The translations under genes and the position numbers were made by a program. A DNA stretch of 64,000 nucleotides from an uncultured Mucilaginibacter sp. (GTDB lineage: Bacteria; Bacteroidota; Bacteroidia; Sphingobacteriales; Sphingobacteriaceae): the NCBI RefSeq assembly GCF_946479965.1, contig NZ_CAMLHX010000001.1:124001-188000 (forward strand), in the 5' to 3' direction. This document shows, in pieces, positions 2,073 through 54,207 of the stretch (positions are counted from its first letter, which is position 1; each line of letters begins with the position of its first letter). Below the pieces are notes generated by a model. That model was not told the origin of the DNA. It made no database searches and saw only the letters and a list, made by a program, of their open reading frames with translations.

Positions 2073-2128
2073 GGTGGCTCAGAGCTGGGGTGAGCTCTGT
2101 GAGCCCCCGTGAGCCCATGTGAGCCACC
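2073..2128. repeat. Array of GTGAGC words at exact 10-bp spacing
   Basis: GTGAGC begins at 2090, 2100, 2110 and 2120, an exact 10-bp period. The array is bounded by an inverted pair, GGTGGCTCA (2073-2081) and TGAGCCACC (2120-2128 region). It lies in the 269-bp gap between the divergent VWA and GNAT genes. The layout (one inverted word on the left, direct words at about 10 bp on the right) matches the elements at 4567, 17829 and 53507, but with a different word. Confidence 0.7.
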
Positions 2129-4566: not shown

Positions 4567-4790
4567 TGTTGCAGAAAATAAATACAACAGTTTGCAACAC
4601 TTGCAACGGCTGTATTTGTATGTGCTTGATAACAAAGTAGTAACGAATATTAAATGTTTAAACATGCAACAGTTTGCAACACCAATATCTTCACATTTTA
4701 TGATACTATATTCGCATTTTAATAGTTAACTTCCTGTAAATAACCAACTTGTATTGGTGTTACCTGTAAGGCCGGGCTTGCAACACCGTA
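4567..4790. repeat. GCAACA-word repeat element
   Basis: Non-coding gap of 409 bp between the NTF2-like gene and atpG. One inverted word TGTTGCA sits at 4567-4573. Direct words (TTGCAAC or GCAACA) sit at 4592, 4601, 4666, 4676 and 4779, with 9- to 10-bp spacing inside each cluster. This is the same design as the elements at 17829 and 53507, with a different word. Homology of the interior to those elements is not clear. No gene is seen. Confidence 0.55.
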
Positions 4791-17828: not shown

Positions 17829-18067
17829 TGTTCCAAAAAATATAAAGCCTTAAAAAAATTAATTTTTCGTTGACGGAGTTAAGCAGCTGTATATCAATAT
17901 AATGATATTTGAATGTGGAACAGTTTGAAACACTTTGAAACTACTTATAAGTCAGTAAGCTTAGCTGTAGATTGAGACTAAGCAATTGATTATAAGGGTA
18001 TTGAATAGAAAACCAGTTTTGCGCTCTTTTTGGAACAGTTTGGAACAGCGAAATTTGAATTTGGAAC
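17829..18067. repeat. MITE-like element with 11-bp terminal inverted repeats (GGAAC word)
   Basis: TGTTCCAAAAA (17829-17839) and TTTTTGGAACA (18027-18037) are a perfect 11-bp inverted repeat with TG...CA ends. A further GGAACA word follows at exactly 10 bp (18041), and another TTGGAAC at 18061. An internal cluster of GGAACA/GAAACA words at 10-bp period lies at 17916-17942. The core 17936-17969 is 29/34 identical to 53591-53624. It fills most of the 344-bp gap after uvrC. No gene is seen. Confidence 0.7.
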
Positions 18068-28003: not shown

Positions 28004-28075
28004 AGGCGTGAGAATGGGTTCGAACCATTGTAAAGAGTTTTGCAGACTCCCGCCTAGCCACTCGGCCACTCCGCC
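28004..28075 (-). tRNA. tRNA-Cys (anticodon GCA), with an extra base in the acceptor stem
   Basis: On the minus strand, G1 is at 28075. The D-arm GCC/GGC, the anticodon stem-loop GGAGT-CTGCAAA-ACTCT (anticodon GCA), and the T-arm AATGG-TTCGAAC-CCATT are all present, and the discriminator base is U, as required for cysteine. CCA is not encoded. The 5' acceptor strand is GGCGGAG, but the 3' strand reads CTCACGCC, eight bases, so one A must bulge out of the stem. The closing pair of the anticodon stem is G-U. It is either a working tRNA with a bulge or a damaged copy. Confidence 0.85.
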
Positions 28076-53430: not shown

Positions 53431-53506
53431 AGTTGTTGTTGGTTTTTTATTAGGACGTTGTTACCCATTAAATAGTTACATCAAATTTAAATTTCAGCGC
53501 GGTAGG

Positions 53507-53721
53507 TGATCCAAAAAAAATGCGTTACAGAAAAAAATGAGATAAAGAATTTCGTAATATATTGATTATTAATTAGTTGTATTTTTAACCTGAAACTACT
53601 TTTAAGTCAGTAAAGTTAACTATAAATGTACTATAATATTCTCATTATCAAATAGTTGTGAACTGATAAAATTGACACTTTTTTGGATCATTTTGGATCA
53701 CTTTGGATCACCCTTGGATCA
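53507..53721. repeat. MITE-like element with 12-bp terminal inverted repeats (GGATC word)
   Basis: TGATCCAAAAAA (53507-53518) and TTTTTTGGATCA (53679-53690) are a perfect inverted repeat with TG...CA ends. Three more TTGGATCA words follow at 10, 10 and 11 bp. The core 53591-53624 is 29/34 identical to 17936-17969. It fills most of the 297-bp gap between the GIN gene and the GyrI-like gene, stopping 6 bp after the stop of the latter. Confidence 0.7.
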
Positions 53722-53727
53722 GTGAAT

Positions 53728-54207
53728 TTAGCGCGGTTTTACAGGTATATAGATATCTTCTTCCGAGTCGGGCTCATCATGTTTGTATTTTTCATCCATT
53801 AAAGCAAAATGCGGCCGGTTGTCAATTATATAATCAGAAGCAGGGAACCAAACACCATAAATGTACTGATACGTTTTTGGGCCAGCACTTGCCGGGCCTC
53901 GGTGCGTAAAAACCGCATATTCTCCCGAAGGGATTGTAAGCAGTTCTATACCTGGAGCCTGTTCAGAACTGTCACTAATTTCAACTCCCGCCCATTTTTC
54001 AAATTCATTGGTTGGTTTAAAATCGTCAAAAAAAGCTGATGGGTATACTTCAAGTGAGTAAAACAACGAATTGACCGGGTTTTTTATTTCGGCCCGACGC
54101 GGCATAAAACGTTGCCATAAAAGGCCGGTTTTGTTTTGACTGAATGACATGTTGAGCCTTTGGCCGGCAATTATTTTTGAAGAAATGGTTAGAAATCTAG
54201 GTTGCAT
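53728..54207 (-). CDS. GyrI-like effector-binding domain protein
   Basis: 159 residues, a stand-alone GyrI/AraC-type effector-binding domain. The pattern is KIIAGQRLNMSFSQNKTGLLWQRFMPR at the start, IPSGEYAVFTHRGPA in the middle, and a C-terminal YIYGVWFPASDYIIDNRPHFALMDEKY, with the Glu-type residue that faces the ligand pocket. There is no DNA-binding domain. Such proteins bind hydrophobic cations or act as small-molecule sensors or hydrolases. It ends 6 bp from the GGATC-word element. An esterase gene lies 26 bp further downstream of its start on the same strand. Confidence 0.85.
   Translation of the reverse strand: MQPRFLTISSKIIAGQRLNMSFSQNKTGLLWQRFMPRRAEIKNPVNSLFYSLEVYPSAFFDDFKPTNEFEKWAGVEISDSSEQAPGIELLTIPSGEYAVFTHRGPASAGPKTYQYIYGVWFPASDYIIDNRPHFALMDEKYKHDEPDSEEDIYIPVKPR

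Follow-up and report, generated by a model that had tools for sequence, protein, structure and literature searches.

Why should the scattered words of one short non-coding element agree with each other, when a second element of like plan carries another word throughout? The question is raised by the element placed after uvrC and before a terminator-like hairpin (e1) in the window, that is, the whole 64-kb stretch of DNA that was analysed, and by a second element in the same window (e2). The first-pass annotation described both as mobile-like, with GGAAC as every copy of the word in the one and GGATC in the other, and suggested either recognition by a protein of variable specificity or copying from the target. 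Both elements and their word positions were confirmed on re-checking (Table 1), the end pairs TGTTCCAAAAA/TTTTTGGAACA and TGATCCAAAAA/TTTTTGGATCA were found as described, with ends 11 bp long in e1 and e2, and the shared 34-base core is 29/34 identical (17936-17969 versus 53591-53624). Neighbouring words lie 9-11 bp apart, in agreement with the claimed phasing of about 10 bp. The sameness of the words holds for the end and array copies and fails beside the core, where the words (17926 and 17936 in e1, 53591 in e2) read GAAAC in both elements. The window is Mucilaginibacter-like; among 251 family genomes searched, the best match of the UvrC adjoining e1 is in G220 (94% identity), and identity is 90% with G020 and 89% with G001, a Mucilaginibacter MAG.

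Short dispersed-word elements are real and more numerous than first noted. The window contains four of them with four different words: GAGCC (e4), GCAAC (e3), GGAAC (e1) and GGATC (e2). A strict scan for clusters of the same TGNNNCA word found three in the window and none in 100 order-2 Markov sequences, in the reversed window sequence or in 5 order-1 sequences; a looser scan of the plus strand likewise found three in the window and none in 100 order-2 Markov sequences or in the reversed sequence. The heart of the core (23 bases, up to 3 mismatches) occurs twice in the window and in none of 100 shuffles. The words of e3 lie at offsets 0, 26, 35, 98, 108 and 212; this element has the full plan and sits between convergent open frames. 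Two side observations concern the window itself. A direct repeat, AGCGCGGT, flanks e2 alone, at 53496-53503 and 53730-53737, as a target duplication or by chance. Rfam places a tRNA on the minus strand at 28005-28074 (44 bits), its sole match over the window, and ARAGORN reports none there.

Table 1. Dispersed-word elements of the window and their parts.
Feature	Position	Strand	Remarks
e4	2075..2126	+	left arm only, word GAGCC; looser scan
e4 words	2075 (inverted TGGCTCA); 2091 (TGAGCTC); 2100, 2110, 2120 (TGAGCC)		
e3	4567..4785	+	word GCAAC; strict scan
e3 words	4567 (inverted TGTTGCA); 4593, 4602, 4665, 4675, 4779 (TGCAAC)		
e1	17829..18067	+	element of the first-pass annotation; GGAAC at 17829, 17916, 18031, 18041, 18062
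e1 inverted end word TGTTCCA	17829..17835	-	
e1 inner words TGGAACA (17916), TGAAACA (17926)	17916..17932	+	
e1 core TGAAACTACTTATAAGTCAGTAA...	17936..17969	+	
e1 IHF-consensus-like site TAAGCAATTGATT, core/right-arm interval	17979..17991	-	sequence match; orientation opposite to e2
e1 right-arm words TGGAAC (18031, 18041, 18062)	18031..18067	+	
e2	53507..53721	+	second element of the first-pass annotation; GGATC at 53507, 53684, 53694, 53704, 53715
e2 inverted end word TGATCCA	53507..53513	-	
e2 left-spacer IHF-consensus-like site TAATATATTGATT	53555..53567	-	sequence match
e2 core TGAAACTACTTTTAAGTCAGTAA...	53591..53624	+	
e2 right-spacer IHF-consensus-like site TATCAAATAGTTG	53646..53658	+	sequence match
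e2 right-arm words TGGATCA (53684, 53694, 53704, 53715)	53684..53721	+	

Related elements are widely scattered in a subset of genomes. A pattern with all word letters free and two mismatches allowed matched 182 times, in 11 of 149 genus genomes with 1 to 52 matches in each of the 11, and its reversed form matched none of the 149; matches among 399 family genomes fell in 5, all of them already among the 11. Additional copies exist and their left and right words mostly agree, so the first-pass annotation withstands the refuting condition that it had set. Coupling is best read from this unfiltered search and its listed rows, 132 of the 182 matches. With w0 denoting the inverted end word and w1-w3 the next direct words (w3 being the fourth word), w0 equals w3 in 123/132, w2 in 122/132 and w1 in 79/132, and all four are alike in 78/132. 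When w0 is not GAAAC (26 of the 132 listed), w3 agrees in 21, w2 in 16, w1 in 11 and all four in 10; permutation of w3 gave a mean of 3.9 and a maximum of 11 in 2000 trials, compared with the observed 21. A filtered set of 92 copies was defined by a match of w0 to at least one of w1-w5 plus likeness of all w1-w3, and its w4/w5 were chosen in a way that gives preference to matching words at a 10-bp distance; w0 is the same as w5 in 62 of these 92, the true ends of most copies not being fixed. Another filtered set kept only copies whose end word matched at least one of w1-w3.

The end words are GAAAC, GAGAC, GGGAC, GGTAC, GGAAC, GTAAC, GAATC, GACAC and GGATC, with GAGCC and GCAAC elements recognized by eye. 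G041 alone has several copies each of the GAAAC, GGGAC, GGTAC and GGAAC classes, which is compatible with a small number of trans factors. A single element can have as many as nine agreeing words (L135, counted by eye). Mixed-word elements occur in G093, in the GGTAC class of G041 and in L067, L166 and L169, and GAAAC, GAGAC, GGGAC and GAGCC are mixed within elements. A 400-kb portion of G220 gave one cluster by the strict scan and three places by the looser one, two of them with GAGCC. Other handles on the family were less useful. A core-based genome scan matched L001, from the Mucilaginibacter MAG G001, and one SAR86 contig, and a larger element family surrounds core-like sites of that MAG; the core alone with one mismatch occurs in 43/100 genus genomes and is not specific, because few of the 30 loci inspected look like elements. 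The A5...T5 end form, which the first-pass annotation gave as the plan shared by e1 and e2, does not extend far: an exact search of 15 genomes matched 8 times, in 7 of them, compared with 3 times for the reversed pattern, and a single match had two equal words; with one mismatch all 149 genomes match, mostly near the reversed control. Among plasmids, phages and viruses no convincing relative was found, and a phage set and two exact viral scans yielded nothing related; five viral pattern matches have no common word, look like chance and were discarded.

In the common unit, offset 0 is an inverted word and direct words follow at 15, 24 and 33; after a spacer there are direct words at 87 and 97 and, in many copies, a core. 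The search pattern fixes where w1-w3 stand but leaves the fifth word free; the offset of this word is 87 in 80/92 copies, corresponding to a left spacer of 47 bp, though the spacer sequence varies. Many copies have a core such as ACTTNTAAGTCAGT or ACTTATTCGTCAGT after the direct words, and full copies (L135, L138 and L157) continue with a second spacer containing TTGATAATCAA and then more direct words. An alternative right end near CTGACAATATAGCGCCACCA is found in some G041 copies and in 12/86 copies overall. Subclasses have features of their own: the spacing is 95-97 instead of 87 in the GGTAC/GGAAC class, and the GAATC copies of two genomes have their own loop in common. By comparison, e1 and e2 are similar to the right half of the family plan, with one word only in their left arms; the distance from core word to first right-arm word is 95 bp in e1, 93 bp in e2 and about 91 bp in L135 (by count). 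The left neighbouring open frame (at least 90 codons) lies on the same strand in 58/86 copies, many of which are within tens of bases of its end. Beside one word element, the right flank of L008 (with similar letters in L006 and L184) has another phased array, CCGTCAATTT/GCGTCAGTAT/CCGTCAAT, in steps of about 10 bp.

IHF-like motifs are enriched in both spacers. In the left spacer, the reverse motif matches exactly in 13/80 copies versus 0-2 in letter shuffles, and with one mismatch in 57/80 versus 5-10; in the right region, the forward motif matches exactly in 14/90 versus 0-1, and with one mismatch in 42/90 versus 10-15. (The alignment used for anatomy and covariation comprises the 80 of 92 copies with offset 87.) This enrichment is partly inherited, because the copies share ancestry. 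In the window, both spacers of e2 contain an exact match, reverse on the left and forward on the right; the single exact match of e1 lies in its right spacer, oriented opposite to e2, and e3 and e4 show one-mismatch matches only. Judged by motif, IHF may bind and bend the spacers, with the qualification that the IHF consensus may not hold in this phylum.

Comparison of corresponding sites shows that the words differ where position and frame are kept. L166/L188 have flanks in common on both sides (90% and 86%), as do L169/L242, and L165/L187 have the upstream flank only (contig ends). In each of these three pairs 12 of 18 word-centre letters differ, compared with 1, 0 and 0 of 24 letters in the TG/CA frames and 3, 2 and 4 of 15 between the words (L165/L187, L166/L188 and L169/L242, respectively). 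L001 and L096, with the same gene before and the same terminator-like hairpin after, have GAAAC and GAGCC-type words, respectively. The e4 site, a divergent intergenic region between GNAT-like and VWA-like genes (named by eye), matches L095, L131 and L147 and has three word sets in four genomes, the window counted: G323 and G336 have GAAAC there, G041 has a GGTAC/GGAAC/GTGAC set, and the window has GAGCC. In G220 (L218), a GAGCC array of one inverted and several direct words in steps of about 10 bp occupies the e2 site, with a different downstream gene. L168/L155 and L092/L244 keep GAAAC, with 0/18 word-centre differences. The spacers of the five measured pairs (L165/L187, L166/L188, L169/L242, L168/L155 and L092/L244) are 0.53-0.68 alike (ungapped), compared with a mean of 0.61 for random pairs, whereas the upstream 150 bp are 0.72-0.92 alike, so turnover is quicker inside the elements than around them; replacement by another copy rather than change in place is possible. 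Spacer likeness is 0.70 for L163/L185 and 0.60 for L182/L192 (upstream flanks only in common), and reaches 0.75 (gapped) in the closest pair, L131/L147, with 0.85 on the right side. L165 and L166, both GGGAC elements of one genome, have 85% of the spacer in common.

Dispersal and absence from some relatives, as the first-pass annotation anticipated, are also seen. The L164 site is empty in G323, G336 and G330, the L169 site in G336 and the L092 site in G330 (for these three, seven of 16 retrieved stretches were aligned), and the e1 site is empty in G220 and G020; the edges are not precise. The proposal that the word is copied from the target is disfavoured, since one site holds different words in different genomes and there is no clear target-site duplication, the latter being a weak test with right ends not fixed. 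The longest word common to left flank and right region measured 6.18 (n = 88), and five permutations gave 5.83-5.99; this small excess has no common length or place. No evidence of movement today was found.

No candidate protein emerged from the neighbours of 85 loci: the open frame shared most widely, by 20 loci, overlaps with the element, and the next shared families (5, 4 and 4 loci) look like ordinary enzymes (by eye, 15 clusters listed). The same neighbours and clusters, again by eye, revealed no parent element with a transposase. An enzyme gene near some copies, which the first-pass annotation suggested looking for, was sought in two families, Y1 transposases and Arm-DNA-bind_5 integrases, and neither proved linked in the 30 loci scanned for each.

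We tentatively favour the explanation, to which we give a little less than an even chance, that these are dispersed, probably transposon-derived non-coding elements serving as sites for a multi-site complex of trans-acting, word-reading proteins. Elements of about 100-240 bp, MITE-like and found in a subset of Mucilaginibacter, would host a multi-site DNA-protein complex in which a trans-acting protein, most likely a recombinase or transposase, would bind at each TGNNNCA word. Words in the outer arms would stand about one helical turn apart, with two more before the conserved core (...GTCAGT...); the arms would be folded onto this core by an IHF-like bend in the spacers. One protein would have to fill all arms, coupling the words of an element; paralogues with different specificity would serve different elements, giving them different words; and sites already in place would acquire new words either in steps, in line with the mixtures of GAAAC, GAGAC, GGGAC and GAGCC, or through exchange of the element interior. 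The elements may have been mobile, and may have some function. Cooperative binding by trans-acting proteins that differ in triplet specificity is consistent with the coupling, the constant spacing, the change concentrated at word centres and the several copies of a class within one genome. Recognition by a protein of variable specificity, as first proposed, is plausible, and the original interpretation as a whole is partly supported. A further reading, which we regard as rather unlikely, is that a three-letter code (TGNNNCA) swapped in all arms at once readdresses one architecture, with many codes per genome and with sites recoded in the course of evolution at unchanged position, spacing and core; recognition would be by word sameness itself or by a protein family with interchangeable triplet specificity.

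Mixed-word elements, the limited agreement of w1 with w0 and the IHF-like matches of e1, e3 and e4 speak against the favoured reading. With four words in four elements within 64 kb, reading by proteins would need four of them in the window species, and coupling in cis stays the main rival, albeit an unlikely one. Words would then be kept alike by pairing of the inverted word with a direct one (cruciform, single-stranded DNA or RNA hairpin) or by template switching, there would be no reader protein and any word would serve. Elements are indeed mostly self-consistent whatever their word, including the four of the window; w3 is the best match of the inverted word, and the 27 units tested, of 80, fold somewhat better than shuffles (mean z of -1.85 for the sense and -2.38 for the antisense strand), an effect for which the inverted word can suffice. 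However, pairing can join the inverted word to no more than one direct word at once, whereas agreement extends to as many as nine words, and blocks 47 and about 90 bp apart agree as well. Mainly the three central letters change and the letters between words are largely kept, unlike a copied tract, and the same word class is met repeatedly within a genome. The antisense strand folds no worse than the sense strand, which gives no hint of an RNA, and with no clear further helix an RNA hairpin was set aside as the main explanation; the best 45 covarying column pairs either join two words or fall largely around the core, a region in which subfamilies differ. Distinctly unlikely, in our estimate, are attachment-like sites of heterobivalent tyrosine integrases. 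Lambda attP and CTnDOT-type sites have phased arm sites on both sides, IHF sites and a central core, and the order seen here (arm words, IHF-like motif, core, IHF-like motif, arm words, at a phasing of about 10 bp) resembles that plan by motif, with e1, e3 and e4 as exceptions. The word, by contrast, varies by copy, there are up to 52 copies per genome, and nothing related appeared in the phage set or the two exact viral scans; we know of no intact attP repeated so often in a chromosome. Arm-DNA-bind_5 (PF17293) matches numbered 45 in 12 genomes, and none of the 30 loci scanned has four same words within 260 bp, so this integrase was rejected as the linked enzyme.

Less likely still are REPIN-like elements moved by a Y1 (RAYT) transposase, the word reflecting the specificity of the cognate RAYT. 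Like REPs and REPINs, the elements are short, non-coding and intergenic, reach dozens of copies in some genomes, fall into several classes per genome and have a hairpin at one end, the left; the same-strand left gene (58/86) and the absence of a clear target-site duplication also agree. The common unit, however, has one inverted and several direct words instead of two inverted palindromes in one hairpin, and five-letter word arrays in 9-11-bp steps, a core and a spacer of constant length are foreign to the REPIN plan as it appears in PMC3116915. An array lies near 1 of 30 Y1_Tnp loci scanned. There (L128 1419-1977, in G098), a RAYT-like gene has its own, unrelated terminal hairpin repeats (CGCTGTTCGAAGTC...) and the GAAAC element, a separate one, lies a few hundred bases away, and Y1/RAYT was rejected as the linked enzyme; G327 has 21 copies and no Y1_Tnp match, though its assembly is only 2.5 Mb. 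CGTC-tagged REPs, described in PMC3733652 as palindromes of 20-40 bp with a terminal CGTC tag and no dedicated transposase, in Bacteroidetes among other phyla, share with the present elements the phylum, the lack of a dedicated transposase (here, among the loci studied) and CGTC, seen by eye in several cores; here CGTC is internal and the element much longer. The least likely alternative is a set of ordinary dispersed repeats, several old MITE families with fixed ends that were inserted into the same hot spots at different times. MITEs are small, dispersed, gene-less elements, and the present ones are too, with TG...CA end words and absence at some corresponding sites. The separate spacing of the GGTAC/GGAAC class and the GAATC loop would suit distinct families, and spacers no closer than random under similar upstream flanks look as if replaced. 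Such families nevertheless leave the matching words within a family and the mixtures in L067, L166 and L169 unexplained, and the closest pair, L131/L147, keeps its likeness; moreover, no clear target-site duplication or parent element was found among the loci studied, and the word differs at corresponding sites, unlike in MITEs.

Small dispersed non-coding elements are a known kind, and no description of interchangeable phased words was found in the open-access literature searched. The coupled change of words at corresponding sites is a natural record of multi-site DNA recognition switching its specificity. If no protein exists, a cis process that keeps distant words alike would be new as well. 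If a family of reader proteins exists, the elements would spell out its binding code one letter at a time and might open the way to a set of orthogonal proteins for DNA binding or recombination.
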